This document shows positions 19,063 to 46,245 of a stretch of 64,000 nt of DNA, one piece after another (position 1 is the stretch's first letter; each line of letters begins with the position of its first letter). Under the pieces are notes generated by a model. It did no database searches, was not told the DNA's origin, and saw only the letters and a program-made list of their open reading frames with translations. Both the position numbers and the translations under genes were made by a program. The stretch is from Prostheceraeus crozeri (taxonomy: Eukaryota; Platyhelminthes; Polycladida; Euryleptidae), in assembly GCA_907163375.1 (NCBI GenBank), contig CAJQUW010004452.1, forward strand, positions 265,501-329,500, given 5' to 3'.

Positions 19063-19079
19063 CTAACGATAAATCTAAC

Positions 19080-22885: not shown

Positions 22886-25762
22886 AGAGGAGAAGAAGAG
22901 AGAAAAGAGAAGAGAGAGGAAAGAGAGGAAGAAGAGAAGGAGAGGAGAGAAAGAGTAGAGAGAGAGAGAAAGAGAAGAGGAAAGAGAGAAGTAGAGGAAG
23001 AGAGAAGAGAAAGGAGAGAGAGAGGAGAGAGAGTAAAGTGGAGAGAAGAAGAGAGGTAGAAGAGTAGGAGAGAGAGAGTAGAAAGGAGGAGATTAGAGAA
23101 AGAGAAGAGAAGAGAGAGAGAGAAAGAGTGAGGAGAAGTAGAAGGCTGGGAAGTGAGAGAAGAGAGGAAGAGAGAGAAGAGGAGAGGAGGAGATAGAGAG
23201 AAAAGGTAGAGAAAGTTAGGAGGAAGAGAAGAGAAAGAGAGAGAGAGAAGAGGATAGAGAAGTAGAGAAGAATGAGAGGAGAAAGAGAGAGAGAAAGTAG
23301 AGAAAGAGCAGAGAATGAGAAGTAAAGAGAAATAGAGAGAGTGAAAGAGAAGAAGAGAGTAAGAAAGAGAGAACGAGAGAGAAGAGAAGAAGAGAGAAAG
23401 AGAAGAGAAGAGAGAGAAGAGAAGAGAAGAGAGAGAGAAGAGAGAAGAGAGAAGAGAAGAGAGAGAAGAGAAGAAGAGAAGAGAGAAGAAGAGAGAGAAG
23501 AGAGAGAAGAGAAGTGAGAGAGAGAAGAAAAGAAGTGAGAAGGAGTAAGGAGAGGAAGAGATGGATGATGAGAAGGTGGAGAGAGAGAAGTAGGTAGAAG
23601 AGAAAGAAGTTTGACAGAGATCAGAAGGAGAGGGAGGATGAGAAGAGTCAGGAGAGATGATAGATGAAGAGAAGAAGATAGAAGGTGATAGAGGCGTTTG
23701 ATAGGTGAGGAGAGGGGAAAGAAGGCTGAAGAGTTGAGAGAATTGATAGATTTGAGGCGAGAAAGAGAGAAGTAAGAGAGGGGTTGTGTGATTAGTAGAG
23801 AAGTAGAGGCAGATGAGAAAGAGAAGAGGAGGTAGAGAAAGATAGAAAGAGGAGAAGTAGAGAGGTAGAAAGAGAGGATTGAGAGTAAGAGGCAGGGTTT
23901 AGAAGAGGAGAAATGAGTATGAGCAGAGAAATAGTGAGGCTGAGATTAGAAGAGAAGAGTAGATTAGAGGGGGTAGAAAGAAGTAGAAGAAGACAAAGAA
24001 GAAAGAGTAGAAGAGAGAGATAAGAGAAGAAGATGGAAGAAGAAGAGAGAGAGCAGAAAGAAAGAAGAAGAGAAAGCATGAGAGAGTGAGATAGAGAGAG
24101 AGGACGATAGATTGGAAGAAGAGAGAGAGTAGAGAGAGAGAGGTAGAAGAGAGGAGATAGAGGAGATTAGGAGAAAAAAGACGAGAGATAAAGTAGAAGT
24201 AGAAGAAGAGGTGCATGAAAGATGAGAAGAAGAGAGATAAGAGAAGTGAAGAGGAGGGATGGTGTAGGAGAAAGTAGAGAAGGAGAAGAGAAGAGGAAGC
24301 GAGAGGCAAAGAGAAGATAATGAGAAGAGAGATAGATAGGAAAGTTAGAGAGAGAAGAGAAGAGAGCTAGGAGAGGAGAGGAGAGTCAACCCTACACAGA
24401 CTCAATTAGAGAAAGATTAGATTGAGAAGGACGAGAGAAGAGGAGAGAGCAGAGAAGATCAGAGGCTCAGAGAGAGATGAGCAGGAAGGGGGGGAGGGGG
24501 AGAAGAGAGGAGAGAGAGTAGAAGAGAAGAGAGAGACGGAGAAGGATAGAAGAGGAAGTGGAGAAGATAGTAGAAGAGGGAGACGAAGAGAATTAGGATG
24601 TATAGGAGAGGGCGAGATAGAGGACGGCGAGAAAGAGAGAAGTAGAAAGAAAGAGAAGAAAGATAGAGAAGAGAGGTGAGAAGAGGCATAAGGAAGGAGA
24701 GAGGCAGAGAAGATGTGGAGAGAGAGGAGAAGAGATGAAGTGTAGCAGTAGAGCGTGAAGAGGCCAGAAAGATATAGAGAAGAGAAGAGAGAAGAAGAAG
24801 AGGAGTGTAGATAAAAGATGAGAGAAGATAAGAAGAGAGATAGAGAGAGGAAGAGAAGAGAGAAGGAAGAAGAAGATAGAAGAGTAAGTAGAGGAGAGAG
24901 AAAGAGAAGTATAGAAGAGTCAGTAGAGAAGAAAGAAATGAAGTATGAAGAATGAGGGAGAAGAAAGAAGAGAGGGCAGAGAGCGAGAGAGATAGAGAGA
25001 GGAAGAGATCGAGAGAGAAGAGAACGAGAGGAAAGAAAGAGAAAAGAGAAGAGAGAGAGAATATGAAGAGCAGAGAGAGAGAATAGAGAGAAGGAATAGA
25101 AGAGAAGATGAAGATATTGTAGTAAGAGAAGTATTAGAGAAAAAGAGAAGAAGTCAGAGCAAAGAGAAGGAGAGAGTAGAGAAGAGGAGGTAAAGATGGA
25201 AGAATTTGAGATGAGAGGAAGAGGAAGAGAGATGAGTAGAAGAGAGAGAACGAGAGATAGAGAAGAAGAGGAGAAGTGAGATGAAGATGGGGAAGTGAAG
25301 AGAGAAAGAGAGAGAGAGTAGAAGAGAGAACGTTGAAGAACTGAGAGTGTTAGAAAGAGAAAGAGAAGAGAGATAGAAAGAGGAGAGTGAAGAGAGAGTG
25401 TAAAGGCGTTAGAGATTTGGAAGATAATGGAGCAAGAGAGGAGAGATAAGAGAGTATGTATGAGAAAGAAAGAGAAATGAAAGAGAGGAGTGATTGAGAG
25501 AAAGGAGAGACGAGGAAGAGAGAAGAGATGAGTAAGAGATAGAAATGTGAGGAGAAGTAGAACGAGAGAAAGATGATATGAGGTGGCTAGAGAGAGTGAA
25601 TGTAGAGAGAGGAGAGTGAGGAGGGCAAGATTGAGGGGAAAGAAGAGAAAGAGGAGAGAGATGTACGGAAGATGTGAAGAGAGATGAAAGAAAGAGCTGA
25701 AGAGAGTGAGAAGTGAGAGAGGAGGCAGTAGTTAAAGAGAGAGAAAGAGGATAGAGAAGAAC
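22880..25762 (+). repeat. Purine-rich (GA)n simple-sequence tract, about 2.9 kb
   Basis: Almost only A and G on this strand, with scattered T (mostly in GTAG or GATAG) and very rare C. There is no longer repeat unit. Open frames within it, on both strands, are compositional and encode only Arg/Glu/Lys or Ser/Leu/Phe runs. It may be an expanded microsatellite or a poorly resolved assembly region. Confidence 0.95.
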
Positions 25763-26611: not shown

Positions 26612-29600
26612 ATGGAGTCCAATACTCAAATTGTAGATTTTCCTGAGTGGCTCCTTCAAAATTCTAACATTATCGAAGCGCTCTTCAATAATTTAGACAA
26701 TTTTAGAATGAAGGCGCTCATCTACCTTAAACTAAAATATATTAAAATAGATTTTCAAAGGGTCAAGTGACGGAGAGAATACAGTTTCATGTTTCCTTCC
26801 TCTTCGCAACCGAAGTTGTAGACTGCGAGTCTTGGCTAAATTTTCACATTCAATGTTTAAAATCAAATGTAGATAAATTCAATCAACGCGACAGCGCTCT
26901 CATTTTTGATGGTGTGGACTCAGCCATATTCAAAATTTCCCTATTAGAAAGTCATGCAGCTCGAGGCACATTTAAACTTCCAAAAACGTTGTATAATAAG
27001 AAAGCTGTCATCAATGTTGATTGTAAATCACAGTGTTTCAAATATGCAGTCCTATCCATCCTTCACTATAATGATATCAACGCGCATCGAGATCGCACCT
27101 ATAGCTATAGACAGTGGGAGGATGAACTAGACTTTGAAGGTTGTGATAGTAACAACATGAAAATCAAAGATGTAGAAACGTTCGAAAAACATAATAAGAT
27201 TAAAATTGTCGTTCACGTGTGGGAGAAGGGGTTGAAGGGTGCCCGCTATAATTCACGTTCAACTTGTTATGAACGTGTAGTCAACCTCTTATTAGTAAAA
27301 CAAGATGATAGCGAGGAATGGCACTACTGTGGTATTCCCAAAATCTCTCGCTTGTACACTCACTTGGGGCACTCTAAAAGAGGTGAACATTTTGTATGCG
27401 ACCGCTGCATCCGCTCATTTTGGAGTAAAGATAAATTTGAAACTCACTATGAATGGTGCAAGCGAGGTAAATTACAAATGGAACGCATGCCCAAAGATAA
27501 AATATTTTCACATAGGGATAATGGTGACGAATTAAGTCCCTGCGTGTCATTTACGCAGACATAGAATGCTACATTGATGATATCATCCACAAGCCAGCAG
27601 CCATATCCTGCTATGAAGTATGGCATGACCACTTTAGGAATAGACAAAACAAAATGCATACTTGGCAAGGTGAAGATTGCATTTCAAAATTTCTAGAATT
27701 TCTCGATAAAGCTGCAAAATTTCAACAATCATATGATTCCAATTGCAGCGTAAGTCACTACATATGTCAGATGAAGACAAACAAAAATTTGAAAGTTGCA
27801 CATCCTGTCCTAAATGTCATAAAACGTTTGATGACGATAAAATTAAGAAAGTGCGTGATCATGATCACATCACTGGTAAATTTAGAAACGCACTCTGCTC
27901 CAAATGTAACTTTTCACTTAGGTTGAGACGTCGTGTACTACCCGTCATTTTTCATAACTTTAAGGGCTATGACAGTCATATGCTCATAAAAGGAGGGTTG
28001 AGCCAGATGAAATCGTGGCAGTTTAATGTAATAGCACAAACGAGAGAAAAATTCATGGCAATGACAGCAAAAGTACCAGTAGATAAAACTAAAGAAAATA
28101 AGACAGTCTTCTTCGAAATAAAATTTTTAGATTCATTTCAATTCATGTCAGCGTCACTAGCTTCTCTCGTTCGTAATCTCAAGTTTCTTCCCATAGTCAA
28201 ACTTTGAAGAAAACACTATCCAAACTTAACGGATGAAATAATCACTCGCAAAGGAGTCTTTCCTTATGCGTATTTTAGCTCAATGTCTAAACTAAATGAA
28301 ACAACCCTTCCTTCCATTGACAAATTCAAAAACGATTTGACGGGTGAAGATTGTCCAGTAGAGGACTATGAACATGCTCAAGAGGCATGGTTAAAATTTA
28401 ATTGTAAAACGTTTGGCGATTATATGATCGCTTACTTAGAATTAGATGTCATTTTGCTGGCTGATGTCTTTCAGGAGTTTCGACGAGTGGCATTAGAAGA
28501 AGACAAATTAGATCCTATCCACTTTGTCAGTCTACCAGCCATGTCCTTTAAATCAGCCTTTAAAATGACTGGTGAGACCATTCATCTCTTACAAGACCCG
28601 GAGATGTATAATATATTTGAGCGCGGAATACGCGGTGGTCTCACATTTGTAAATAAACATCATATAAAATCTGAAACAGTAGGTGATGATCATATCCACC
28701 TAAAGTACTATGACCAAAATAATTTATATGGCAGTTCACTGTCTAAACCACTACCTCATTCCGAGTTTAGTTGGTTAAATCAAAATGAGCTTGAGTATTA
28801 CTCCAACCCTTCAAACATACTGAATATTCCAGATGAAGGTGATTGGGGATATTATTTTGAAGTGGATTTGATTTATCCAAATAGTATTAAAAATAAAACT
28901 GCTGATTTCCCACTCGCACCTGAATCTGGCGAAGTGACTGAAGATATGTTTTCACCATTCATGTCACAATTTCATAATAACTTAACAGAGTGTGGACAGC
29001 CAAGGTACAAACCATGCCGCAAACTTTTACTCACCCAATATGATAAGAAAAATTATCTCGTACACTTCTGCATATTAAAATTCTATTTAGAAATGGGCAT
29101 GCTTCTAAAGTCAGTTCACCGCATTATCAAATTTAGACAGAAAGCCTTCCTCAAACCCTACATAGATAGTAACAGTCAAAAACGTGCACTCGCCCAAAAT
29201 AATTTTGAAAAGGATTTTTATAAATATAAGAATAATAGTCTATTCGGAAAGACCATGGAGGATGTTAGAAAACGTATGAATTACAAACTAGTCGTTGATG
29301 AACAAAAATATCACAAATTGACCTCATCACCTCTTTTCATTGATAGAGACATCATCGATGAGGATCTTGTAGGTGTTAAAATGATTAAATCAGAAGTTGA
29401 GTTGTGCAAACCCATCTATATTGGGCAAGCCGTTTTAGATTATTCCAAGCTTGAAATGTATCAACTCTTCTACAAAATATTAAAACCATGCCCTCTCGTA
29501 AAAGAGGTTCGCTTGCTGGGTGGTGATACAGATAGTTTCTTTTTAGGAATTACCACTCAAAAAGATTTAAATTTTAATGAAGTAGGTAAGTCATTAGAAA

Positions 29601-30061
29601 AATATTTCGATACATCTAACTACAATCCCACTCATCCACTCTATTCCATACAGAATAAAGCCAAACTTGGTTGTTTTAAGGATGAAACAGCAGGAAAGGA
29701 AATAGATGAAATGATTCTCCTCCGTCCTAAAATGTATTCCATGAAACTAAAAGAATGTGCAGATAGTATTAAGCGTGCTAAAGGTATATCAAAATCCATT
29801 GTTCATAAAATGAAACATCGGTCCTATAAGAAGGCCTATAAAAATAAAACTATAACGTTTGTCAATATGACAATCTTAAAATCTCAAGTTCATACTGTGA
29901 AAACGTACACGTTCAAGAAACGAGCACTTTCAGCATGGGAGGATAAGAGGTGTTGGATAGGACATAACACATCTCTTCCACATGGACATCCTGACACAAA
30001 CATACCTCCACCCAAAAGAATAAAACTCACGCTACCACATTCAGGAGATGTATTGACATAA
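26612..30061 (+). pseudogene. pPolB: Protein-primed-type family B DNA polymerase, broken
   Basis: This is the Polinton replicative polymerase. A short lead-in frame (26612-26770) precedes the main frame 26746-27567, which holds a family-typical N-terminal region and a C2H2-like finger (CDRCIRSFW, HYEWC). The exonuclease DIEC motif (27558-27569) is in the next frame, so a single-base break lies near 27530-27550. A second -1 break lies near 27735-27750. The third frame carries a CPKC/CSKC zinc site with RDHDHITGKFR and the exonuclease FHNFKGYDSH, then an in-frame TGA at 28205-28207. The rest (to 30061) has exonuclease III AYLELDVILLAD, motif A YYDQNNLYGSS, motif B KNNSLFGKTM and motif C GGDTDSFF. 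All catalytic motifs are present, but this copy cannot be read through without recoding or correction of sequence errors. Confidence 0.93.
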
Positions 30062-30240: not shown

Positions 30241-31761
30241 TCACTTTGTTTTCCGAAACACTAAAGTTACGAGGGATTTAGTATCTTTCACATGGATACA
30301 CTCTTGTAAACCATTGGTAATTTTGATAGCAATAGAGGGTATAGTTTGTTTGACGACGGGATGATAGAAAATAGATTCAAACATCTTCTCGACTATTCCA
30401 TATGAAGCGTCTTTATCATGAATGAAATCACGTAAAATGTATTCTTTTTTCTCGCCAACAGAAATAGGTAAAATCAAATCACTTTGAATGTAAAGGTGTT
30501 GTTCATGTTTATCAAGTGTCATTGGTGTTTCTATACCAATCGTATGCGCAGCAGCAAACACAGTTTGTAGCATTGAAAAGCCAAAGAGTTTTTTCAAATT
30601 TTTACTCAATTGACATTGAATGTCATCACCCAGTTTCAGAACAACGCGTTGTTTTTCAATTGAAAACGAAATGTGGTGTGTCTTTACATCATATTTACTT
30701 TTCATCACATGCTTCAACTTCTGTTGTATATAAGGATTTACTACATGAATGAAGCTTTCAACTGTATGATATAGACGCGGCATTATATTGATAGCAACTT
30801 TAGATTCTTCATAAGACTGGTAAATTTTCTTGATGCGATCGCCATAGATGTCCACCCACCATTCATCATTAACTGAATCAGCTTTAGTGTGATATTCATG
30901 AGAACCATACACCACACCGCTTCCAATAATAGGCGTATAATGTCTTACAAAATGACGCAAGGTTGGAGAGAAATAAACTGTAAGTTTGTCATTATATTTC
31001 TGAATAACCAACTTATTTTTGTCCGCCATAATTTTCTCTCCATACTTCTTACCCACAGTCTCATTCCATCGTTTTACTAACTCAATAAGTGATAAAGGTT
31101 GAACACCACGCTTTTTCAAAATGATGCGTTCTTCGCATTCTACAACATCTTCATCAAATATTTTAAATCTATAATGAAATTTGTTGATTCGAGTTGAATA
31201 AACTTTTTTAACATTTGCAGTAGCAATTGACGTTAGATGTAGTCCATGACCAAAACCAAGATGTGGATAGAATTCACTATCCAACCTCAGCGTAAGACCT
31301 TTAGTAAAAGAATGAAAGCGGAGGAACTGTCTCCCACTCCAATGATAGATAGTAAACTCATAAGCTTTCTGATTTTTATTCTTCATGATGGAAGTATTAC
31401 CACTGTTGAATGCCTTAATAATTTTCTCATTCCCAAATGGCTCATAAGAATCTGATTTTATCTGAATCCATTCATAGTTCCACTTTCCATCTGATGTTAA
31501 ATTGTATGGGAACTGAAATGCATTATTCATCGTTATTCCATCATGGGTGCGAGGAGTCAATATCATTTCTTCCAAATCATTCACATTCTGAATATTGCTA
31601 TCATAGCAAATACTAGAAACGCCAACTTCCCATTCACCTTCTAAATGCAGTGGCCGATTTAATTCTACTCGATAGTCTGATGGTTTATTTTTGGGAAATT
31701 TATTCATAGAAGCATTACTGGGCAAGTAGATTAGAAACGAGTCCTTATTTTCACTTTCCAT
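30241..31761 (-). CDS. Structural protein, EWEVG family, paralogue 1
   Basis: The frame is open from 31791, but I prefer the ATG at 31761 (MESENKDSFLIYLPSNAS) because an octamer-like ATGCAAAA lies at 31794-31801, 33 nt upstream of it. About 506 residues. The N-terminal segment FLIYLPSNASMNKF and HLEGEWEVGVSSICY is shared in pattern with the next minus-strand gene. This arrangement occurs in the large structural proteins encoded beside Polinton capsid genes; whether it is penton, fibre or another component I cannot say. The C-terminal half includes LKKLFGFSML and ends CIHVKDTKSLVTLVFRKTK. No breaks are visible. Confidence 0.65.
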   Translation of the reverse strand: MESENKDSFLIYLPSNASMNKFPKNKPSDYRVELNRPLHLEGEWEVGVSSICYDSNIQNVNDLEEMILTPRTHDGITMNNAFQFPYNLTSDGKWNYEWIQIKSDSYEPFGNEKIIKAFNSGNTSIMKNKNQKAYEFTIYHWSGRQFLRFHSFTKGLTLRLDSEFYPHLGFGHGLHLTSIATANVKKVYSTRINKFHYRFKIFDEDVVECEERIILKKRGVQPLSLIELVKRWNETVGKKYGEKIMADKNKLVIQKYNDKLTVYFSPTLRHFVRHYTPIIGSGVVYGSHEYHTKADSVNDEWWVDIYGDRIKKIYQSYEESKVAINIMPRLYHTVESFIHVVNPYIQQKLKHVMKSKYDVKTHHISFSIEKQRVVLKLGDDIQCQLSKNLKKLFGFSMLQTVFAAAHTIGIETPMTLDKHEQHLYIQSDLILPISVGEKKEYILRDFIHDKDASYGIVEKMFESIFYHPVVKQTIPSIAIKITNGLQECIHVKDTKSLVTLVFRKTK

Positions 31762-31793
31762 ATTATTCACATTGGAAAAATATATTAGCATAC

Positions 31794-31801
31794 TTTTGCA
31801 T
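31794..31801 (-). promoter_or_regulatory. Octamer-like promoter motif ATGCAAAA
   Basis: Minus-strand ATGCAAAA ending 32 nt before the preferred ATG at 31761, where a TATA box would be expected. Confidence 0.5.
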
Positions 31802-33197
31802 TAACTCTTCATTCGGAAATGGAGTGTAATACTTGTCACAGCATCTTTATGAAAAGGAATCAACGCACCAGCATCATCATAAATGGCAATATCAATTTGT
31901 GGGATGTAGTTTGATTTCAGCTTTGTATAATGCACTTTCTTGAAAGTATGCTCAGATAAAATACTGCAGCTTTTTGGCTGGTATGGTATCATTGCTAGCA
32001 ATGGAGCTTCAACATCTCCCACACGTACATCTTCACCAATATTGGAATATATCTGAAAATAGTTAATACGACGCGATAGCGACATGTCTGCGCTAGCTTT
32101 GGTTACAGTACCACTTTTAAAGATATTTTGATCAAACCCAAAATGTCCATTAGAGTTTTATCCATAATTAGTTCAATACCTTTTCCATTTATAGTGAGAG
32201 ACAAAGTACCTTCTTTTTCAGAAAATGAAATATGTTGCTCATTAATCACTTCATTTAAATAATCTACAACCAATTTAACCGAAGTAATAATGCGAGGCAT
32301 CAACACTCTTGTTTCATGTAAGAAACCACCAAAAGGCTCTACACACTTTCTGTATAAAGATACGGCCCATTCTGTATCAAATTGATTTGACCTTTCACAT
32401 GGTAAATGTTGCATATCAGATTTTCCATGAACAGCTGCAGAACGATGTCGTAAGAACTGATGAAAATCTTTTGAACAAACTAATACTAGATCATCATCAT
32501 TTAATTTGCTTATTGCAATATGATTAGATGATTTAATATAAGTCAATGTTGCCACTTGTTTGTCATCAACTCGAAGGAGATAATTAAATTTCTTCAATAA
32601 TGTTTCAGGAGTCATGTTTGTCTTTCTTGGCTTAATCACAATCTTCTTCACCAACGTCTTCTCATTTCTTGGAATAAGATCTACATAATAAGCTTCCTCT
32701 CGATATATTAACTGTTTATGACCACTTATGTGGTAATTAACGTTAAAATTATCATAGCTTGTTAAGGCGCTAGCGAGGTAGCCTAAATCATTTCTTAAAC
32801 TTGGACTTAAACCAACAATCCAATCTTTCTCAACTACATGATGTACATAATTATAATCATCATTGTGCGGAGTAAATTGGACAATATGTTTACACGCTTT
32901 ATTCAAGAAATCATATATAAACTTTTTACATGATAAGAGATCTTTCTTTGGCCACTGTGGAATGTATACTCGGCACCCCTTTTCACATTGATAAGCAGCT
33001 GTACGCCTCATATTAATAGTCATCACCTCATGATCAAAAGTATAGACACAGTTGCTATAAACAAGTTGAGTGACACCCACTTCCCAATTCCCATTTAGCT
33101 GTTGTGCATGATCAATGGGAGTAGAAAAGAGTGCGGCTCGATTGCTAGTAAATCTCTTTGTAGCCGCATTGCTAAGCAAAATATGATAAAACGACAT
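31801..33197 (-). CDS. Structural protein, EWEVG family, paralogue 2, split by a -1 frame change
   Basis: ATG 33197 (MSFYHILLSNAATKRF) opens a frame with NGNWEVGVTQLVY, the same N-terminal pattern as the neighbouring 506-residue protein. That frame stops at 32103. A second frame (to 31801) carries the family-like C-terminal part with GDVEAPLLAMI and VTSITLHFRMKS. It stays open backward to 32136, so the two overlap and are related by a -1 shift. At 32136-32142 the coding strand reads T TTG GGT, a heptamer of the X XXY YYZ form. So either ribosomal -1 frameshifting or a one-base loss explains the split. It is probably a capsid-associated protein; exact role unknown. Confidence 0.65.
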
Positions 33198-33232
33198 TTT
33201 TATATTGCTAATCTGCAACTTTGCATAACATC
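33198..33232. promoter_or_regulatory. Very short divergent promoter with octamer
   Basis: Only 35 bp separate the start codons of the minus-strand structural gene (33197) and the + gene (33233). It contains minus-strand ATGCAAAG at 33219-33226, 21 nt from the minus-strand ATG. For the + gene only weak matches are visible. Confidence 0.5.
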
Positions 33233-33589
33233 ATGAAGACTTGGATTTTGGACTCTCTACAATATATCAGAGTTGATCGTGATGGAAACGTACATTTCAA
33301 AAATTCTCATGGTCATACATCAAGAGGAATTACATTAACATGGCGACAATTTGTCAACCTCAATGATATCATGAGGGATTTGGAATATTTTGAAACATTA
33401 AGATTCATCTCCTTGGGTGATCAAGTTTGGCTTCAACATTACAGAAATGAAATTCAAATCTACCATTCTCATTCCGCAAACTGTTTCTCATTTCGCAAAT
33501 ACAATTGGGAGAAGTATAGAAGATACATACATCGCTCCATCATGACATTTATTCGTCGTGAGTTCATCGCCCTACTATGCAAATCTTAA
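33233..33589 (+). CDS. Small basic protein, paralogue A (unknown; weakly PC4-like)
   Basis: It starts at ATG 33233 (MKTWILDSLQYIRVDRDGNV) and is 118 residues. It is clearly homologous to the next gene: both share W-x-LDSLQ-x-I, NV-x-FK-x-S-x-G, an Arg/Gln-Phe-x-x-Leu-x-x-IM-x-DL helix, a GD/GNR-x-W-L strand, and WEKYRRYIHRSI near the end. A beta-strand-rich first half followed by a helix is reminiscent of the PC4 single-strand DNA-binding fold, but I cannot demonstrate it. It is the first gene of a three-gene + strand island ending in the TBP-like gene, among minus-strand structural genes. Confidence 0.6.
   Translation: MKTWILDSLQYIRVDRDGNVHFKNSHGHTSRGITLTWRQFVNLNDIMRDLEYFETLRFISLGDQVWLQHYRNEIQIYHSHSANCFSFRKYNWEKYRRYIHRSIMTFIRREFIALLCKS
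33577..33584 (+). promoter_or_regulatory. Octamer ATGCAAAT upstream of paralogue B
   Basis: Perfect octamer in + orientation, inside the last codons of paralogue A and ending 27 nt before the ATG at 33612. Confidence 0.55.
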
Positions 33590-33611: not shown

Positions 33612-34262
33612 ATGAGTTGGAAATTAGATTCCCTACAACGTATTGAAACGGATCATGATCGAAACGTCTATTTCAAAGATTCAACTGGAAATGTGAGAAG
33701 AGAGTTTGTTTTATCTTATCGTCATTTTCAATCTCTACATCATATCATGAAGGACTTGAAATACTTCTATATGAAAAGACATTCACGTATTGGAAATCGC
33801 ATCTGGCTGCGCGTCAACAATCGGCGAATTCAACTCTATCATTCCCAACTTCATACTAACTTCACATTTCATCAAGGTAGTTGGGAAAAGTATAAAAGGA
33901 AGGTACATCGCTCAATTTACTCATTCTTTCATCATGAAGCGCCATCGCTACACCATCGTCAACATTCTCCGTCGCTTCAGACTCTACACCAAAATCGATC
34001 TCACAACATTACGCCAACAGCTTCCAAACAGCAAGTATTACCCGGGCCGTCCTCAAATGTTAGTGGTGAAGATGAACAATTCACGGAATCTTCAACTCTT
34101 CCCAAATGGGACTGTACAGATTCTCGGCGCCCTTTCTCATTCATCGGCGCAGTCAATGCGCTTAGAGCTACAGAGACTACTACGTCGGATATGGAAGAGG
34201 GAGAGGTGTGTGATGTCGAATCTGACTGTGGACAATATGGTGATCTCTACTCAATTGAGTGA
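33612..34262 (+). CDS. Small basic protein, paralogue B, with unsupported C-terminal extension
   Basis: ATG 33612 opens MSWKLDSLQRIETDHDRNV. Residues 1-108 align with paralogue A and end at the equivalent HRSIYSFFHHE. The frame then stays open for another 108 residues (to 34262) overlapping the TBP-like gene in a different frame. That tail is Ser/Gln/Thr-rich low-complexity and is probably open only because of constraint on the TBP frame, although a genuine overlapping extension cannot be excluded. A TATA box for the next gene lies inside its WEKYKRK codons. Confidence 0.55.
   Translation: MSWKLDSLQRIETDHDRNVYFKDSTGNVRREFVLSYRHFQSLHHIMKDLKYFYMKRHSRIGNRIWLRVNNRRIQLYHSQLHTNFTFHQGSWEKYKRKVHRSIYSFFHHEAPSLHHRQHSPSLQTLHQNRSHNITPTASKQQVLPGPSSNVSGEDEQFTESSTLPKWDCTDSRRPFSFIGAVNALRATETTTSDMEEGEVCDVESDCGQYGDLYSIE
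33891..33898 (+). promoter_or_regulatory. TATA box (TATAAAAG) before the TBP-like gene
   Basis: TATAAAAG ends 35 nt before ATG 33934, within the coding sequence of paralogue B. The corresponding codons of paralogue A read AAGTATAGAAGA, which is not a TATA box, so the motif is not forced by homology alone. Confidence 0.5.
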
Positions 34263-34479
34263 CAGTCTATCATTTTTGAAGATTCGTACCAGCAGTTACA
34301 GTTTGTGTTATGAACCCGAACTTTTTCCTGCAGCTCTCATTAGTTGTTGGTTGCCTGTGCATGTGGCAATCTTTCATAATAGTAAAGTGATCATTACTGG
34401 ACTAAAATCTCATGAACAAGCAAATATGATCCTAGACTATCTCATTGAGTATGTACGTACCCAGCGGATTGTAAAATAA
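33934..34479 (+). CDS. TATA-binding-protein (TBP) homologue
   Basis: ATG 33934 gives 181 residues, almost exactly the size of the TBP core domain. Two repeats are visible. Repeat 1 (about residues 6-86) has YTIVNILRRFRLYTKIDL, YYPGRPQMLVVKM and LFPNGTVQILGA. Repeat 2 (about 96-178) has NMVISTQL, the hallmark CYEPELFPAALI, then VAIFHNSKVIITGLK. The Phe in LFPNG, ELFPA and AIFHN sit where TBP uses Phe to kink DNA. TBP nucleates RNA polymerase II initiation by binding the TATA minor groove. This copy is divergent from cellular TBP and has no N-terminal extension. It has its own TATA box (33891) and an AATAAA overlapping its stop. TBP is not in the standard Polinton core set as I know it. The frame is intact. 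Confidence 0.87.
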   Translation: MKRHRYTIVNILRRFRLYTKIDLTTLRQQLPNSKYYPGRPQMLVVKMNNSRNLQLFPNGTVQILGALSHSSAQSMRLELQRLLRRIWKRERCVMSNLTVDNMVISTQLSDSLSFLKIRTSSYSLCYEPELFPAALISCWLPVHVAIFHNSKVIITGLKSHEQANMILDYLIEYVRTQRIVK

Positions 34480-34505: not shown

Positions 34506-34967
34506 TTATTTCAAATCATGATAGAACTTACAAATCATTTTTTCATTAGAGGATGGATTACATGAAAAGTTTTGAATAACAGATGCAAATCGAGATACAT
34601 GTAAACGTTTTAAGATGAAGTACAGTACAAAAGCACCACACGTTGATGAAAGTGGATGTTGTAGTATGCGTTCATTTCGCTGATATTGACGCGTATGTTT
34701 TCTCAACCACTGCTGTGTTGGTATATTTGGAGGTTGAGCAAGAGAGTCAAATAGTTCACCACGTCGGTCTTCTCCAATAAAGATCGCTTTCCAATGCTCA
34801 CCGCCTAAATTCTGTGAATGAGTGTTTAGCACAATAAAGATGGGATAGTGATTTACTGCAGGTGGTAAGGTATCGAGTGAATAGACATTATCGAAAGCTT
34901 TCAACGTCGCTTCGTCTGCATTACGCTGCACTTTAGTCTTAATATCGTCAGCAGTCAACCAACTCAT
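34506..34967 (-). CDS. PRO: Adenain-like cysteine protease
   Basis: 153 residues, in the size range of Polinton and adenoviral maturation proteases, which cleave capsid precursors. Catalytic His in GGEHWKAIF, acidic residue in GELFDSLA, Gln in RILQHPLSS and Cys in STCGAFVLYF are in the expected order His-Asp-Gln-Cys. Its ATG overlaps the stop of the major capsid gene (TAATG), suggesting coupled translation or one transcript. An AATAAA overlaps the stop. No breaks. Confidence 0.9.
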   Translation of the reverse strand: MSWLTADDIKTKVQRNADEATLKAFDNVYSLDTLPPAVNHYPIFIVLNTHSQNLGGEHWKAIFIGEDRRGELFDSLAQPPNIPTQQWLRKHTRQYQRNERILQHPLSSTCGAFVLYFILKRLHVSRFASVIQNFSCNPSSNEKMICKFYHDLK

Positions 34968-36244
34968 TAACGATTATACTGAAGAATCACGTCACGATAC
35001 TTTGTAATTTCAATATTTGAATCGAAGACTGCATAAATTAATACATTGATCGTCTCAGGTAGTGTTCTTTTGAACGTCAAATCCAAACGAATATTATGAG
35101 GCACGTTCGCTTGACGATAGGGTGCACTAATATCGCTGTCAGCAGTCAAATCAAATGCATAAATAGTATATCCACTCTTAAACTCTTTCATAGTCAGTCC
35201 GTTGGTATCATCCGTATTGTAAAAGCCAAAGACATCCATAAAATCAACATAACTGCGCATAAATTGATCCGAAGCAAAATCTGGTTTGTAGGGTGGACCA
35301 GGATGACTCACACCATTAACACGTAAAGCAATTTCACTTAACTGATTGTGTTTAAAATTGAAAGGATTCTTCTTTATATTACCATTAAATGCATCATTTT
35401 CAACCATTGCCACCATGAGGAGCTTCGGTGCTTCCGATGGAAAGAGGCCATCTTTCATGAAACTCTTTTGATCTTTCGGAATTGTAAAGGTGAGAAGCTT
35501 TGTATGCTGAACGGGGTAAATGGCATTTTGGCGGTTAAGACCTTCAGCATGCCCTCTAATGACACTTGGATTCGGTACTACTCGACGAATGTAAAGTGCA
35601 ATATCTTCCACATGAATTCTAAAATTGTCAACTTTAGCAAATGCATTCAGCGCAAATTCAGGCTTATTCAATGTCAGCTTGAGTCGCATGCTGGTATTAC
35701 AGAGTAAAAACTTTGACTGTCTAAAGAAGTCTAAATTCAGCGGACCATATAGCTGACATACTCTACTATCTTTAATCATAGCAGATCGCTTTACAAAGCC
35801 ACTGTTTGTTTCAACATCAAATTTTCCTGCTTCATCTCTGTACCATCCCATGGCTTCCATATGACTTTTTTGTGCTGCTGGATGAAACTGTGATACATGA
35901 TTGAAATATGATTTATAGGGATAATCGCTTTGACCACCTTCCACCTGCTGCTCTCCAATCGTTAGAGAAACATCGCGAAGTAATGTAGTCAATGGTAAAT
36001 TGTTCAGTCCAACTTTATGTGCATCGTCAATAGCAGTTCCATCTGCTTGCTGAATTCTAAACCTCAAATCAAGCATCGCATAACTCAAATCTATGTAGTC
36101 ATCACTACCACCAGGAATAACAAATTCAATGGGGCCAGCATTCTCAGCTGTTCGAGGATGATAATCTACAATACTTGAACTAAGAATATCTGTCTGTATG
36201 GCTTGTTGATCGAACAAACAAAAACCGGAAGTTTTACACTCCAT
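34967..36244 (-). CDS. MCP: Major capsid protein (double jelly-roll type, putative)
   Basis: 425 residues. The N-terminal part (FVIPGGSDDYIDLSYAMLD, LRDVSLTIGEQQVEGG, YPYKSYF) has the features of the capsid protein conserved in animal Polintons, encoded as here beside the protease. Mid-protein segments LDFFRQSKFLLCN and FTIPKDQKSF and a C-terminal IRLDLTFKRTLPETINVLIY fit beta-rich capsid folds. The frame is intact. It lies 2 nt downstream of the small basic protein gene and directly upstream of the protease, in one minus-strand cluster. I infer the jelly-roll fold from the family, not from the sequence alone. Confidence 0.78.
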   Translation of the reverse strand: MECKTSGFCLFDQQAIQTDILSSSIVDYHPRTAENAGPIEFVIPGGSDDYIDLSYAMLDLRFRIQQADGTAIDDAHKVGLNNLPLTTLLRDVSLTIGEQQVEGGQSDYPYKSYFNHVSQFHPAAQKSHMEAMGWYRDEAGKFDVETNSGFVKRSAMIKDSRVCQLYGPLNLDFFRQSKFLLCNTSMRLKLTLNKPEFALNAFAKVDNFRIHVEDIALYIRRVVPNPSVIRGHAEGLNRQNAIYPVQHTKLLTFTIPKDQKSFMKDGLFPSEAPKLLMVAMVENDAFNGNIKKNPFNFKHNQLSEIALRVNGVSHPGPPYKPDFASDQFMRSYVDFMDVFGFYNTDDTNGLTMKEFKSGYTIYAFDLTADSDISAPYRQANVPHNIRLDLTFKRTLPETINVLIYAVFDSNIEITKYRDVILQYNR

Positions 36245-36246
36245 GA

Positions 36247-36702
36247 TTAGAAGTTATAGCAGCGTCGTCGTTTAGCGCCTGATGAATGATTAGAGCCTCT
36301 GCGACGTTTGCGTGAATGCCTTTTGACTGAAGATCGCACCTTACCAGCTCCGCGATGTTTCCTCCTTCCTTTTCTCATTCGTTTAGGTGATTTCTTTCCT
36401 TGAGTAACACCAGCAATGGTCTGCTTCAATGTTTTTAAACCGCGTTCCTTCCCACGATTCAACAAACTGCTCTTAAAACTTCTACCTCTGGAAAGATCAC
36501 TAGCAACATCACCAGCAAAGCCAACGGCATTACTTAAAACATTTCGTTTTAAAGATCTACCGACATTGGATATGAGAGGTGCTACAACAGATTTCAGTGC
36601 ACCAAGTATGCTACCTCCACGTTGGCGGCGAGCACCGATGTAAATTTGTCCTCCACCACTTACGTAGGAGGGTCGTGAATAAAATGAGGCAGTTGGATTC
36701 AT
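36247..36702 (-). CDS. Small basic virion-type protein with Gly-rich N-terminus
   Basis: 151 residues. The N-terminal part YVSGGGQIYIGARRQRGGS is followed by an amphipathic hydrophobic segment (ILGALKSVVAPLISNVG) and a Lys/Arg-rich tail (KRMRKGRRKHRGAG and KRHSRKRRRG). A membrane-active helix plus a basic DNA-binding tail resembles small core or minor proteins of adenoviruses and Polintons, but orthology is not shown. ATG 36702 lies 30 nt after an octamer (ATGCAAAG, complement of 36733-36740). The stop is 2 nt before the capsid gene start. Confidence 0.7.
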   Translation of the reverse strand: MNPTASFYSRPSYVSGGGQIYIGARRQRGGSILGALKSVVAPLISNVGRSLKRNVLSNAVGFAGDVASDLSRGRSFKSSLLNRGKERGLKTLKQTIAGVTQGKKSPKRMRKGRRKHRGAGKVRSSVKRHSRKRRRGSNHSSGAKRRRCYNF

Positions 36703-36732: not shown

Positions 36733-36740
36733 CTTTGCAT
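36733..36740 (-). promoter_or_regulatory. Octamer-like promoter motif ATGCAAAG
   Basis: Minus-strand ATGCAAAG ends 30 nt before ATG 36702; probable promoter of the basic protein, capsid and protease cluster. Confidence 0.55.
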
Positions 36741-36751
36741 GAATCACTGTC

Positions 36752-37830
36752 GATCACTTAGATGAAAGATGTCGGCACGACGCATCCAAGAGTTCATACT
36801 TGAAGGATAACCAGTCCATTTAACAAGACACCATTCTTCACCTTGCCGTTTTTTTACATCGAATGATTTTCTCTACCAAATATGTTTCACTTTCAGTGAC
36901 TACCTCAATCTCATCGCGGTAAAGCTACCCTCAATTTCTTCATTATCGTAATCTTTCAACTTGTAGGTGGTCGGAGAGTCTTTTTGATTAATCCTTGATA
37001 CTGTAAATACCTCCTCTGTCCAATTCGGGAGGTACCCTTTAGCAAAAACACTTTTCACTTTTGAGATACGAACTTTATCGCCAATTTTCACATCACTTTT
37101 CACATGAGTGCGTTTTCGTTGGATTGTTTCGCGCACTTTATCTACATTGTCAGCATTTACATCTACTGGTCTGAGTCCAATAGAACGATGGATAGAGTGA
37201 TTGTAGGCATGGAGTGTATCTTGTAGAACCTTTGTCCAATTTTGTGTCAAGTTGGCAGTAAATGTCGCCACAAACGATTTTTTAATGTGCGATTAAAACG
37301 TTCAACGAGTGCAGCTTTATAAGCGCTCTTTACACTAAACAACTCAATGTCATGCCTCTCAAATAATCTTGTCACATGCTGATTTTCAAACTCTTTTCCT
37401 TGATCACTCTGAATTCTTTTTGGAATGCGACCTTCTCGAAAATTTGTTTGGAATGCTTTTGCTACTCCTTTCCCTTCTTTAGTTTTTAAAGGTTGAGCCC
37501 ACGCATAACGCGAGAAAATATCAATGACGGTTAAAATAAAATTATTGCCCGAGTTATGTTTTGAAATGGAGGCAACATCGCACAAATCTGCTTGCCACTG
37601 TTCATCGATGTCATGAACAATATAATGGCGGGTGCGGTACTTCTTTTTCGCTTGTTTGTGGATGTGTATAGGTAGCCTGACCCTTTAACATCGTTTCACT
37701 TGTGATTGTGGAAGACCACTCGCTTTTGATAATTTCTTGATAGATGCAAATCCTGCCGGATGTTTACCATCATAATAGATTGACTTCAAACGTTCAGAGT
37801 CGTGATGACGACTGACTCTTTTTTCTCCTT
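36752..37830 (-). pseudogene. INT: Polinton DDE integrase with chromodomain, several frame breaks
   Basis: This is a retroviral-type integrase that inserts the element. In order: an N-terminal helical region (YYDGKHPAGFASIKKLSK), the first catalytic Asp in QWQADLCDVAS, the second in RIQSDQGKEF, the Glu in ALVERFNRTLK, a C-terminal basic barrel (VKIGDKVRISKVK) and a chromodomain (YLVEKIIR, then WCLVKWTGYPSSMNSWM). The pieces lie in different frames. Breaks are seen near 37815 (A-run), 37685, 37650, 37262, 36927 (TTT) and 36867 (A7). All catalytic residues survive. The concentration of breaks at short homopolymers could reflect decay or uncorrected sequencing indels. Confidence 0.92.
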
Positions 37831-38118: not shown

Positions 38119-38936
38119 TTGCTTAGTGAGTGTAGGGAGGGGATAGTTTGTTTTTTGTGTGTGTTGTTGGGTTGTTGTGTTGTTATTTGTTTGTTTTTTG
38201 TTTTGTTTTTTTGTTATTGTTGTTGTTTGTTTATTTGTGTGTTGTTTTTGGTTGTTTTGTTTTGTTGTTGTTGTTTTTTGTTGTTATTGTTTTTGTTTTG
38301 TTGGTTTGGGTGGTTTTGTTGTTGTGTAGCTTGTGTGTTTTGTTTGTTTTGTGTTGTATTTTGTTGTAGTGTTTGTGTGTTAGTTGGTGTTGGTGTGTGT
38401 TAGTTTGTTTGTTGTTTGTGTTTTTTGTTTTGTGTTTGTTGTTTGGTTGTTGTTGTGGTGTTTTTGTTTGTGTTGTTGTGTTGTGTGTTGTTTGTTTGTG
38501 ATTTTTGTTTGTTGTTGTTTTTTTGTGTTGTTGTGTTGTTGTTTGTGTTGTTTTGTTTTTTTTTGTTGTGTGTTGTTTTTTGTTGTAGTGTGGATAGTTT
38601 ATTTATTGTTAGTGTCGTGTAGCGGTGTGTTGTGTATTTGTATTTGTAGGTTGTTGTTTTATTGTTGTTTTGTGTGTTTTTGGTGTTTTGTTGTTTTGTG
38701 TATTGTTGTTTGTTTTGTGTGTTGTGTAGTTGTTGTTTGTATTTGTTTGGGTTGTTTTTTGTTGGTTGTGTATGGAGTTGTTGTTTTTGTATTGTTTTTG
38801 TTGTTTTGGTGGTTGTTGTGTGTTGTTGGTGTTTTGGGTTTTGTGTTATTGTTGTGTTGTGTTGTTTGTTTGTATGGTTTTGTGTGTTTTGGTAGGTTGG
38901 TGTGAGTTTGGTATTGTTTTTGGTTTTGTTATTTGT

Positions 38937-38999
<63 letters not shown>

Positions 39000-41409
39000 G
39001 TGGTAGTTGTTTGTAGGTAGATGGTTTAGTTTGTTTGTGTTTGTTGTTTTGTAGTTGTTTTTGTGTTTGTGTTTTGTTGTTTTTTTGTTGTTGTTGTAAT
39101 TTGTATTGTGTTGTTTTTGTGTATATGTAGGGGTTTTTGTGTTTTGTTTGTATTTTTTTGTTTGTTGTAGTTAGCGGGTGGGTTTTTTTGTTAGTTGTTA
39201 GTGTGTTTGGTTTTTGTTGTTTTTTGTATTTTTTTTTTTTTGTATGTATTATTGTTTAAAATGTTGATTTGAGTGTATTTTAAGTTTTAAATTTGTTTTA
39301 AATATATATATTAATGATATAAAATTTAAAATAAGATTAAAAATATATATATTTAAAAATAAAATATAGTTGTTGTGTTTTTGAAAATTATTGTTTTAAA
39401 TTTATAATATAATAGAAAGTGAATATAAGAAATAATAAAAATATAAGAAATAAATAAAAAAATGATTTAAAAAAAATTATATTAATTAATGGGGGGGTGT
39501 TGTTTTGTTTGTGTGTTTGTGTTTTTTGTTTGTTTTGTTTTTTGTGTGTTTATGATATGTAATGTAGGTTGGTATTTGTTTTGTTGGTTTTTTTGTTTTT
39601 TTGTGTTTTTTTGTTGTCTTTTGTTGTAGCTGTATTTTGTTGGAGTTGTTTTGGTAGTTTGTTGTTTTTTTGGTTATTGTTTGTTTTTTGTAGTCGTTTT
39701 TTGTTGTTTGTGGTTTGTTTTGTTTTGTAGTGGTATTTTGATTATATGTTTTTTTTTTTGTTGGGTTTTATTGGTGTTTGTTGTTTTTGTTGTTTATTAT
39801 ATTTGTAGCTTTGTTGTTGTCGTTTGTTTTTATGTTTGGTTGTTGTTTTGGATGTGTTGGGGGGGGGGGGGGGGTTTTTGTTTTGTAGTTTGATGTTGTC
39901 TGTGTTGGGTCTGTTTATTGTTGTGGGTTTGTGTGGTAGGTTGTGGTGTTGTTTTTTTTTTTTTGTTGTTTTTGTGTTGGTAGTTTTGTGTTATGTGTAG
40001 TATTGTTGTGTTTGTGTTTGTTTTTGTGTTTTTAGTTTGTTTGTTTTTTGTGTTTTGTTTTGTTGTAGTGTTTGTGATTTGTTTGTTGTTTTTGTGATGT
40101 GTGTTGTTTGTTTTTTGTTGTTTTGTTTGTGGTTGTTGGTGTTGTTGTGTGGTATTTTGGTTGTTTTGTTTTGTTTTGTTGTGTATTTGTTATTGTTTTT
40201 TTTGTATTTTGTTATGTTGTGTTTGTAGTTGTTTATTGTGTAGTGTGGTGGTTTTTGTAGATGTTTAGTGTATGTTTTGTGTGTTGTTGTTTTGTGTTGT
40301 ATTGTTGTTGTTTATTGTTTTTTGTGTAGTAGTTTGGTCTTGTTTTGTGGTTGTTTTGGGATAGATGGTGTAGTATTTGTTGTGTGAGTATTCGTTGTTG
40401 AGTTTGTTTATTGTGGATGTGTTGTTTGTGTTTTTGGTTGTTTTGTTTTTTTGGGTTTGTTTTGTTTGTGTGTGTTGTGTTTTTGTTGTTTGTTTTTGGT
40501 TTGTTTGTTTTAGCGGTGTTGTCTTTGTTTTCTGTTTTTTTGTTGGTAGTTGTTTGGTGTTTTTGTTTGTGTGTTGTAGTGTGTGTGTGTTTGTGTGTTG
40601 GTTTTGTTGTTGTGTAGTTTTTTTTGTTGTTGTAGTGTTTTGTTATTTAGTGTTGTTGTCGTTGTAGTATGATAGCTTTTTGTGTATTTGTTGTTTTTTG
40701 TTGTTTTTTTGTGTTTTGTGTTGTTGGTGTTTGGATGTTGCCCCCTTTGTGGGTAGAGGTGTTGTTGTGTGTTATTGTATTTCGTTTGTGTTTGTTGTTT
40801 GGGTTGTTGTTTGTTGTTTTTTGTTTTGTAGAATGTAAGTTGTTAGGTTATGATTGTTGTAGTGTTGTTGTTTTGTATTGTATTGGTTTTATTTGTTGTT
40901 GTTTGTTTTTTTGGTAGCTGTTAGGGGGTTTGTTATGTGTGTTTTTTGTAGCTCTTTGTTATGTAGTGTTTTTTATTTGTATTTTTTTTTTGTTTTGTTT
41001 GTTGTTGTTTTTTGGTATTGTTTTTTTGTTTGTTGTTTGTTTGTTTTTGTTGTTTGTGTATGTTTTTTGTTGTTAGTGTGTTGTTGTAAGTCTTGTTGTG
41101 TGTTTGTAGTTTGTTTTTTGTAAGGCGTTTGTAGTATTGTTTTGTTTTTGTAGTGTGTTGTTTTTTGTTTGTGTTTGTTGTGTTGTGTTGTTATTTGTTG
41201 TTTTGTTGTTTGTATGTGTATTTGGTTTGGTTTTGTTGTGTAGTGTTTGTTGTTATGTTGTTTGTTTGTGTTGTGTATGTTTTTTTTTGTATGTTGTTTG
41301 TTTGTTTTTTTGTTTTTTTATTTTTATTGTTGTGTTTGTTTGATTTTGTTTATGTGTTTGTTGTTGTAGTTTTTGTTGCGGTTTTTTTTGTTTTTTTTTG
41401 TGTTGTAGC
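38119..41409 (+). repeat. G/T-rich simple-sequence tract, about 3.3 kb
   Basis: Almost only G and T on this strand, with sparse A and very rare C. It includes a run of 59 consecutive G at 38939-38997, a second G run near 39859, and an AT-rich island at 39240-39490. Open frames here are compositional (Val/Leu/Phe/Cys runs). It truncates the minus-strand ORFs on both sides. Confidence 0.95.
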
Positions 41410-41970
41410 AGGTGACGCCTTAAACCAATTTGTTGGCATTTTCATCGTCTGAAGCATTGGAGTAGTAGCCACTGTTGAATCAAGTTCTTTCAATGTCTCA
41501 TTATTCAAAGCAAATTTTGGCACATTATGCTTTTTCAATAGTTTAAGAAAGTATGACCAACCAGGTGGAACATAGCCCTGACGGCGCTTTCTACGTGTCG
41601 CATACTGAATCAAGTCTTCATAACGTGAAGCATCAATCACTTTATTTTCATCTGTAATGATTTCTCCTCTATCATTTACATTGAGATGGGGCTCAATACT
41701 ATTGAAAAGAGATATGGCATGTGCGCGAGATGCTAAAGGTGTAGCAGTCGATACAGAGTCACGCATCTTATTCTTCAAGTTTTTCAATTGCTCAACAGTT
41801 TCCGATTGTAATAATACAGCACGATGTGGATCTTTGATGTGAACATTTTGCTGATAATCTATTTCTTTCCTATACATTTGATTTGCAAGAGGTTGCTTTA
41901 CTTGCTGCATGGCAGTCAATTGTACATATTCATCCTGAGGAATAACAATCATGCGAGAATAAGAACTCAT
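41350..41970 (-). CDS. Polinton conserved-type protein, C-terminus running into the G/T tract
   Basis: The frame is 206 residues; only about the first 187 are outside the tract and the Thr/Lys-rich tail is compositional. It opens SRMIVIPQDEYVQL and contains a helical region with LLQSETVEQLKNLKNKM and a W/P motif GYVPPGWSYFLKLLKKH. The start overlaps the stop of the ATPase gene (ATGA), so it is probably translated from the same transcript. I believe genes of this general form accompany Polinton ATPases, but I cannot name a function. Confidence 0.6.
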   Translation of the reverse strand: MSSYSRMIVIPQDEYVQLTAMQQVKQPLANQMYRKEIDYQQNVHIKDPHRAVLLQSETVEQLKNLKNKMRDSVSTATPLASRAHAISLFNSIEPHLNVNDRGEIITDENKVIDASRYEDLIQYATRRKRRQGYVPPGWSYFLKLLKKHNVPKFALNNETLKELDSTVATTPMLQTMKMPTNWFKASPATTQKKTKKTATKTTTTNT

Positions 41971-42584
41971 AGTTTGTAGATAATCATGGGAGTTTTCAAA
42001 ATATCACTTCGAAATCTAAATTCTTCCGGACACTCTTGCGTAAAGTCAATGAATAAGTAACCGTATGGTTTTTCAGTAGCTGCTTGAAAAATTTCAATTA
42101 AGGCTTTTGATCCTCTGGGTGCAACTTGTCGCGCTAAAATTTCAAATTGACTTTTATCTCGCGGATTCTTGAAAATAGCATAATAGTGTGTATTCAGGTT
42201 TCGTGTACGAGCTTCTTTTCCATCAGGAAACAAATTTTGTGTAATATAGATGATAAAGCACCTTTTATGGTGTGCTGCGCGAGTAAACATATCTGTAACA
42301 TCTTTTGAATTCTTACTTTCTTTTAATAAATCATCCAATACAACAACATCATTAGACTGAAGTTTATCCACTGGAATAATTCCTTCATGTCGAATAAAGT
42401 TGCGACTTTGCAATTCCTGAAACAGCGACGGTTGATAAATACCATAACACCAAATCACTCGATTGATAGGTTCCTTAAACAACTCCCTTCTTTTATCCAA
42501 TAAATTCAGCGTGAAAACAGTTTTACCTGCATGAGATGGACCTGATACAGTCAGAACTTTATCACATTGAAGTCTGAAATCCAT
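41967..42584 (-). CDS. ATP: Packaging ATPase (FtsK/HerA, A32-like)
   Basis: The frame is open from 42632; I prefer ATG 42584 (MDFRLQCDK) because a perfect octamer (complement of 42606-42613) lies 21 nt upstream and the longer start would put the motif inside the coding region. Walker A GPSHAGKT is near residue 15, Walker B VVVLDDLL near 80, and a following IIYITQNLF has the conserved Thr-Gln of this family. About 205 residues, usual for genome-packaging ATPases of Polintons. Intact. It is followed by an overlapping gene at 41970 and preceded by the small basic protein gene. Confidence 0.93.
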   Translation of the reverse strand: MDFRLQCDKVLTVSGPSHAGKTVFTLNLLDKRRELFKEPINRVIWCYGIYQPSLFQELQSRNFIRHEGIIPVDKLQSNDVVVLDDLLKESKNSKDVTDMFTRAAHHKRCFIIYITQNLFPDGKEARTRNLNTHYYAIFKNPRDKSQFEILARQVAPRGSKALIEIFQAATEKPYGYLFIDFTQECPEEFRFRSDILKTPMIIYKL

Positions 42585-42605: not shown

Positions 42606-42613
42606 ATTTGCAT
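42606..42613 (-). promoter_or_regulatory. Octamer ATGCAAAT before the ATPase gene
   Basis: Minus-strand ATGCAAAT, 21 nt before ATG 42584. It overlaps the end of the preceding gene. Confidence 0.5.
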
Positions 42614-43010: not shown

Positions 43011-43018
43011 ATTTGCAT
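43011..43018 (-). promoter_or_regulatory. Octamer ATGCAAAT before the small basic protein
   Basis: Perfect octamer on the minus strand, 38 nt before ATG 42972. Confidence 0.55.
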
Positions 43019-46239: not shown

Positions 46240-46245
46240 TCAGTC

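Follow-up and report, generated by a model that had tools for sequence, protein, structure and literature searches.

A divergent TATA-binding protein gene within a Polinton of the flatworm Prostheceraeus crozeri

The stretch of DNA analysed here, 64,000 nucleotides in length and hereafter called the window, contains a Polinton/Maverick element of 30,166 bp at positions 16074–46239. Its ends (AGTAGT.../...ACTACT) could be placed exactly: terminal inverted repeats beginning with 5'-AG and a 6-bp target-site duplication are both present, the hexamer TCAGTC standing at 16068–16073 on the left and at 46240–46245 on the right. Within the element, a gene of the TATA-binding protein (TBP) family, with 181 codons and two TBP repeats, lies on the forward strand at 33934–34479 and converges with a gene for an Ulp1/adenain-like protease (34506–34967, reverse strand; Peptidase_C48, E = 0.0012, 19.2 bits against a cut-off of 20.7). 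The protease gene belongs to a run on the reverse strand that starts with the ORF 36247–36702 and includes a capsid-type gene of 425 codons (34967–36244), which is without a Pfam match and whose product we take to be the Polinton capsid (F54H12.2-like). A DNA polymerase B region of interrupted frames (27157–30061, forward) was recognized by eye from a polymerase motif; its part 27764–28207 matches Endonuclease_7 (E = 4.8e-7) and, under the cut-off, DNA_pol_B_2 (E = 9e-4), and no Pfam polymerase match was obtained on 28283–30061 or on the 1048-codon frame of locus L036. The integrase region (36900–37684, reverse), which in the window was recognized only by eye as a pair of overlapping frames, has a counterpart in the TBP-bearing relative L035 that matches rve (E = 1.5e-13) and Chromo (E = 1.5e-7). 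A packaging-ATPase candidate (41967–42584, reverse) and an ORF for an Adeno_PX-like small protein (42616–42972, reverse) both have Pfam matches under the cut-off, and the ATPase candidate of L035 has no Pfam match. The polymerase and integrase frames look interrupted, and the window copy of the Polinton does not seem intact, although its TBP frame is. An earlier note on this DNA had placed the TBP gene between structural genes and inside terminal repeats, and had attributed it to the element and not to flanking host sequence. Indeed, the repeats are real and the capsid-type and protease genes lie within the same element; the attribution holds, as these neighbours co-occur with the TBP gene in other copies and the element TBPs form a separate clade (see below).

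The element also contains two strand-asymmetric tracts, one GA-rich of 2.5 kb (22885–25398) and one GT-rich of 3.2 kb (38149–41397), a 293-bp tandem unit in 4.9 copies adjoining the left terminal repeat (16749–18183), and a charged ORF of 410 codons (19026–20258, forward) without significant Pfam match, possibly a coiled coil as judged by eye. The ORFs at 30241–33197 (reverse), adjoining the TBP module, have similar N-termini, with EWEVG or NWEVG after an Asn/Pro-rich run, and counterparts of these two ORFs were found in L033/L036. A search of the window against Rfam gave 0 matches at gathering scores.

The TBP frame is open through all 181 codons, and its translation matches Pfam PF00352 in two stretches (E = 7.6e-21; 74.2 bits against a cut-off of 22.9), so that the intact frame with two TBP-type repeats described in the earlier note, and its expectation of a significant profile match, are borne out. 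With the window TBP as query, phmmer matched 35 PDB sequences up to E = 1 (best 2.8e-14), of which 34 are named as TBP or TFIID or are TBP-holding fusions, the remaining one being the E. cuniculi ECU04_1440 protein; a profile of 61 sequences gave the TBP of M. jannaschii as its best match (9.8e-25). The AlphaFold2 model (mean pLDDT 95.5) contains the beta-sheet/helix unit of the TBP saddle twice, and Foldseek against the PDB at E ≤ 0.001 returned 44 chains, all from TBP entries or TBP-holding initiation complexes (for a few of them, we presume that the matched chain is the TBP), with a top TM score of 0.82 (1pcz). Several top matches in BFVD are named giant-virus TBPs, at 8–20% identity among the best 15. 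It is thus near certain that the ORF encodes a divergent member of the TBP family, not a canonical TBP.

The divergence is unevenly spread over the protein. We aligned 135 Polinton-type sequences and numbered positions after yeast TBP (y), the alignment being uncertain by one residue near y114; apart from the four intercalating Phe, the roles of these positions in contacting DNA and TFIIB are assumed here. The window TBP is 22% identical to yeast TBP, and over the 135 sequences the mean identity is 15% for repeat 1 and 29% for repeat 2. Three positions of repeat 2 are near-invariant (y159 N in 135, y161 V in 135 and y215 T in 134 of 135 sequences), and the acidic TFIIB-contact loop is kept (y186 E in 132 and D in 3; y188 E in all 135). 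Repeat 1 departs from TBP at y122 (V to Q, 135/135), at y124 (T to L, M or F, 135/135) and at y71 (V to M, L or H in 115 of 121 ungapped sequences); repeat 2 is also altered, at y205 (L to A, T or S, 135/135) and y209 (S to N or T, 132/135). The four intercalating Phe of TBP are named in PMC12529657. Three of them are kept in the Polinton type (y116 in 135/135, y190 in 134/135, y207 in 135/135), and the position of yeast F99 is occupied by P in the window TBP and in 129 of the 132 ungapped family members. Regarding structure, the earlier note was therefore right about the saddle fold but not about four intercalating Phe. Judged from these residues, the DNA face of repeat 1 appears rebuilt, and repeat 2 and the TFIIB-contact loop appear mostly TBP-like. 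The simplest reading would be that the specificity of this TBP has changed at one half-site, its engagement of host TFIIB being retained; the P at the yeast F99 position should weaken DNA bending.

The TBP gene overlaps another gene. An ORF of 216 codons on the same strand (33612–34262) shares 329 nt with it in another frame, and this out-of-frame overlap also occurs in distant families. Comparison of its predicted fold ranks PUR, MRP and Whirly proteins first, at 7–11% identity, and the ORF has no significant Pfam or Foldseek match; PC4, a guess made by eye, found no match in Pfam and seems a less likely family. In the model, the N-terminal half is folded (pLDDT 67–85 per block over residues 11–110), and the C-terminal half, which is encoded in the TBP overlap, is of low confidence. 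A paralogue with 42% identity, identified by sequence comparison, precedes it at 33233–33589 (forward) without overlapping the TBP gene. The PUR/Whirly-like protein presumably binds single strands; binders of this type are also linked with replication.

A promoter seems to be nested in this overlapping gene. We compared nine loci from three families, i.e. the window and 8 of the 27 element TBP loci. The box TATAAAAGG (33891–33899, forward, within the PUR-like ORF) stands 43–46 nt before the TBP start in eight of the nine; the exception, L014, has TGTAAAAGG instead, with the same layout as judged by eye. An initiator-like TCAYT is found at the same place in all nine (TCATT at 33921–33925, forward, in the window), and in the eight its A lies 32 nt past the first T of the box, a distance that corresponds to TATA–initiator spacing. 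Read in the frame of the PUR-like ORF, the box covers Tyr-Lys-Arg codons, and it is identical at synonymous positions across families; in the TBP frame, the TBP genes of these families are near saturation (dS 1.6–2.7 where computable, for L012 versus the window or L018). Among database relatives with N-terminal extensions, nine read upstream x-I-K, 11–12 residues and Met, which fits the same box, and three others (P0015, P0023, P0048) are without the x-I-K pattern. When 16 starts of the window were examined, TATAAA at about −43 was seen for the TBP gene only; another TATAAA lies 7 nt before the ORF 32103–33197. This arrangement points to a canonical TATA–initiator core promoter directly before the TBP gene, nested in the PUR/Whirly-like gene.

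The TBP gene is abundant in the genome. The assembly that contains the window (2.05 Gb) has 4,767 exact copies of a 31-nt stretch of the gene, against 0 of the reversed control, in what looks like a very large Polinton expansion. With the window TBP protein as query, the best 150 of 11,886 first-look candidates were all 100% identical and stop-free. Eight copies fetched from this list of identical proteins, whose low divergence is biased by that choice, differ from the window by 8–21 substitutions in 3.5 kb, and all eight have the neighbouring protease DNA and the reachable part of the capsid-type gene. A diverged TBP query gave at least 150 matches of another type, 145 of the 150 scored being without stops; the TBP was read in L021, L024, L026, L031, L032 and L034, the last with a polymerase-like frame seen by eye. 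In a third type (L012, L013, L016), the TBP gene lies beside capsid-type and protease genes; the TBPs of L012 and L013 are far diverged from that of the window (dN about 0.6), and a frame matching rve and Chromo adjoins the L013 copy. Two further families of the same genome thus carry the gene. The earlier note had considered that absence from related copies would suggest a one-off capture; the identity of 150 of 150 scored matches and the two further families contradict such an absence, and the far-diverged TBP beside capsid genes in the L012/L013 family supplies the linkage in other Polintons that it had proposed to look for.

Some copies are rearranged. Two mini-elements (L031:909-8533 on C1764 and L032:1520-8706 on C6222) contain a polymerase-like fragment recognized by eye. 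Both have the TBP/PUR pair twice, in inverted arms (100% identity; 2.65 and 2.9 kb) of a kind that fold-back replication might produce. Two copies, L020 and G000:C2388:146500-147042, have an extended open frame of 292 codons, and in L020 the PUR-like and TBP frames form a single frame.

The host's own genes are distinct from these copies. Yeast TBP as query identified two TBP exons of the host, with 79% and 86% identity, at other loci, as well as an exon resembling TLF, an animal-specific protein, at a separate locus (39% identity to yeast TBP, one TGA inside), and these exons fit an animal genome; the remaining 147 of the best 150 rows had 23–26% identity, and the nine that were read (L012–L020) are of the element type. 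In protein databases, the single TBP sequence retrieved 60 relatives at E ≤ 4e-14 and the profile 388 at E ≤ 1e-5; among the 120 of the 388 listed, 4 carry a name given by the source (TBP or TFIID). These relatives probably lie in Polintons. No relative was found in IMG/VR with the window TBP, the capsid-type protein, the TBP alignment, the PUR-like alignment or the ATPase candidate, nor in GTDB genomes and phage records.

A tree was computed from 44 rows: 26 of the Polinton type (the window, three loci of its genome and 22 chosen from 134 database relatives), 12 TBP loci from IMG/VR (10 of them different), 4 eukaryotic and 2 archaeal. A branch of length 2.2, supported at 100/100, separates all Polinton-type rows from the others, the L013 and L021 families being placed among the database relatives; the IMG/VR loci lie outside this clade. 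Host TBP groups with the TBPs of yeast and E. cuniculi, away from the 26 Polinton-type rows, so that the comparison with host TBP suggested in the earlier note separates the element TBPs from animal TBP and TLF. Long branches may meet in this tree (vir_L041), so that any sister of the Polinton-type clade in it is tentative. Over the whole TBP gene, dN/dS in the three pairs formed by the window, L014 and L018 is 0.25, 0.24 and 0.11 (0.09–0.33 for gene parts). Among near-identical copies (window versus L017, L019 and L020) it is 0.79–1.18 on 13–15 changes, values that are not informative and would be compatible with constraint having relaxed once a copy has inserted. Between sub-families the TBP gene is conserved in its protein sequence, and its divergence indicates that it is old.

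Candidate boxes of another kind precede some structural genes. ATGCAAA occurs 29–46 nt before 6 of the 16 starts of the window, and four of the six read TATGCAAA. These four lie at 33220–33226 (reverse; −29 from the ORF 32103–33197), 33577–33583 (forward; −35 from the PUR-like ORF), 42607–42613 (reverse; −29 from the ORF 41967–42584) and 43012–43018 (reverse; −46 from the ORF 42616–42972); the other two are at 31795–31801 (reverse; −40 from the second ATG of the ORF 30241–31791 and −10 from the first) and 36734–36740 (reverse; −38 from the ORF 36247–36702). Ten starts are without the motif, four of which (protease, capsid-type, 41970 and 43347) are located in the preceding gene or no more than 3 nt from it. 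L014 and L019 retain the box before the PUR-like ORF, L018 having ACGCAAA there; L019 also retains ATGCAAA before the ORF 32103–33197. In a second TBP-bearing family, TAAGCAA stands 34–38 nt before 3 of 16 starts, the other 13 being without it. In 2,000 randomly placed sets, ATGCAAA never preceded more than two starts and no 7-mer more than five, and for TAWGCAA in the second family none of 5,000 random sets reached three starts; however, these figures are optimistic, since ATGCAAA was chosen by eye before counting and guided the search that gave TAAGCAA. ATGCAAA was rejected as a box common to all families: in the second family it is, by eye, not before genes, and in the third the three occurrences seen are tied to no gene start. 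ATGCAAAT is also the octamer site of POU factors, which counts against a box private to the element.

Taken as a whole, we consider it about an even question whether the element-encoded divergent TBP acts as a promoter-selecting factor that uses host TFIIB and Pol II; that the protein is a TBP is near certain, and its role as a selector is what we infer. In such a scheme, host TBP and Pol II would read the TATAAAAGG promoter, and the element TBP would be made early. It could then bind a modified box at the TATA position before the leading structural genes, namely ATGCAAA, mostly as TATGCAAA, in the window family and TAAGCAA in another; its repeat 2 would read one half-site much like host TBP, and its altered repeat 1 would tolerate GC. 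The kept acidic loop would recruit host TFIIB and Pol II, a recruitment proposed because neither TFIIB nor RNA polymerase was matched in Pfam by the 20 window ORFs scanned. PUR/Whirly-like proteins from the same region may help by binding RNA or the strand that has been opened, and the outcome would be a late-type transcription of capsid genes, independent of host promoter choice. In its most specific form, that of a private promoter code in which the TBP with remade repeat 1 recognizes the GC-containing TATA substitute TAWGCAA and recruits host TFIIB and Pol II, aided by the PUR/Whirly-like binder, the proposal is possible but somewhat short of even. Several observations weigh against the selector reading: most starts in both families are without a box, the box of the PUR-like ORF is altered in L018, the yeast F99 position is P, and repeat 2 itself is changed at y205 and y209. 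A box at −29 combined with host spacing would also leave almost no leader.

Other explanations must be weighed against this one. The protein could be an ordinary TATA-reading TBP that acts in trans, raising or replacing host TBP where this is limiting (in resting or germ cells), without any private code. The repeat-2 core, the TFIIB loop and the saddle fold are all kept, and a canonical TATA box in its own promoter means that such a TBP could feed back on itself; yet that box is found, at about −43, before none of the other 15 starts, and the DNA-contact positions of repeat 1 are consistently changed throughout the 135 sequences, so that we regard this explanation as unlikely. A role outside initiation seems to us rather improbable as well, whether the protein titrates partners of host TBP (TFIIB, TAF1, Mot1, NC2) or has an architectural or replicative function on the DNA of the element. 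Three of the four Phe and the near-invariant minor-groove Asn, Val and Thr of repeat 2 would be needless for a pure competitor, although the loss of one Phe, the reshaped repeat 1 and the proximity of a presumably single-strand-binding protein, of a class linked with replication, would suit such a role.

That the gene was captured from host TBP recently and only once, or that its frame has decayed and has no function, is scarcely credible. The interrupted appearance of other genes in the window copy and the dN/dS of near-identical copies could be read in this way; however, 22% identity to yeast TBP compares with 79% for the host's own exon, the clade is separate with full support, dN/dS between sub-families is 0.11–0.25 and the copies number thousands. 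Host capture or an artefact was accordingly rejected on the identity of the host exon, dN/dS, copy number and the tree.

Transcription initiation in eukaryotes and archaea centres on TBP, and its possession by a mobile element suggests that elements of this kind may themselves determine the sites from which their genes are transcribed. If the reading as a private promoter code is true, the TBP module would represent a minimal two-gene viral initiation system, and its TBP a natural one with changed DNA specificity. Two questions become testable: the timing of capsid gene expression by integrated Polintons, and whether TBP specificity can be re-coded via one repeat while TFIIB contacts stay. With thousands of copies of the gene in its genome, the host could face a considerable additional load of TBP-coding sequence. 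In the literature on Polintons, Mavericks and adintoviruses, no Polinton TBP was found among the matches listed from open-licence PMC text: neither 'TATA' nor 'TBP' occurs in PMC11071308, PMC10120064, PMC4642659 and PMC8097293, and 'TATA' and 'transcription' are absent from PMC4028283. Four findings go beyond the earlier note: a PUR/Whirly-like gene that overlaps the TBP gene, a core promoter nested within it, a candidate box unlike TATA, and one intercalating Phe fewer than the expected four.

Compared with known systems, the element is a Polinton/Maverick in its AGTAGT ends and its 6-bp duplication, to which a candidate protease gene, a capsid-type gene and probable remains of polymerase and integrase are added, and it differs by the overlapping TBP and PUR/Whirly-like module. 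Vertebrate Mavericks, as described in PMC8097293, also have AGT twice at the 5' end, and measure 12.7–24.6 kb when intact, against 30.2 kb here. With cellular TBP (PF00352), the Polinton TBP shares the two repeats, the saddle fold, the TFIIB-contact loop YEPELFP and three of four Phe; it differs by P for F at y99, Q for V at y122 and L for T at y124 (M or F in some relatives), by the lack of a long N-terminal extension and by being encoded by a mobile element. The overlapping ORF differs from the single-strand binders PUR-alpha, Whirly and MRP in its low identity to them (7–11%) and in being without a significant Pfam or Foldseek match. The giant-virus and mirusvirus TBPs share with it a TBP fold in a DNA virus, at the low identities found in BFVD. 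TBP is named as a viral gene (PMC11464507, PMC4602308, PMC10132985), TATA-binding proteins are placed in mirusvirus-like elements (PMC10675990), and giant or large algal viruses with TBP also encode TFIIB (PMC11464507, PMC4602308) and RNA polymerase subunits (PMC11464507); unlike in those systems, neither of the latter was recognized in the 20 window ORFs. The logic would be parallel, if the selector reading holds, to that of KSHV ORF24, the TBP mimic of a beta/gamma-herpesvirus. According to PMC12529657, ORF24 is a TBP-like protein that directs host Pol II to late promoters with the altered TATA box TATTWAA, has all four Phe, relies on additional domains and does not have the acidic contacts to TFIIB, whereas the Polinton TBP consists of a bare core domain with three Phe and retains the acidic loop.
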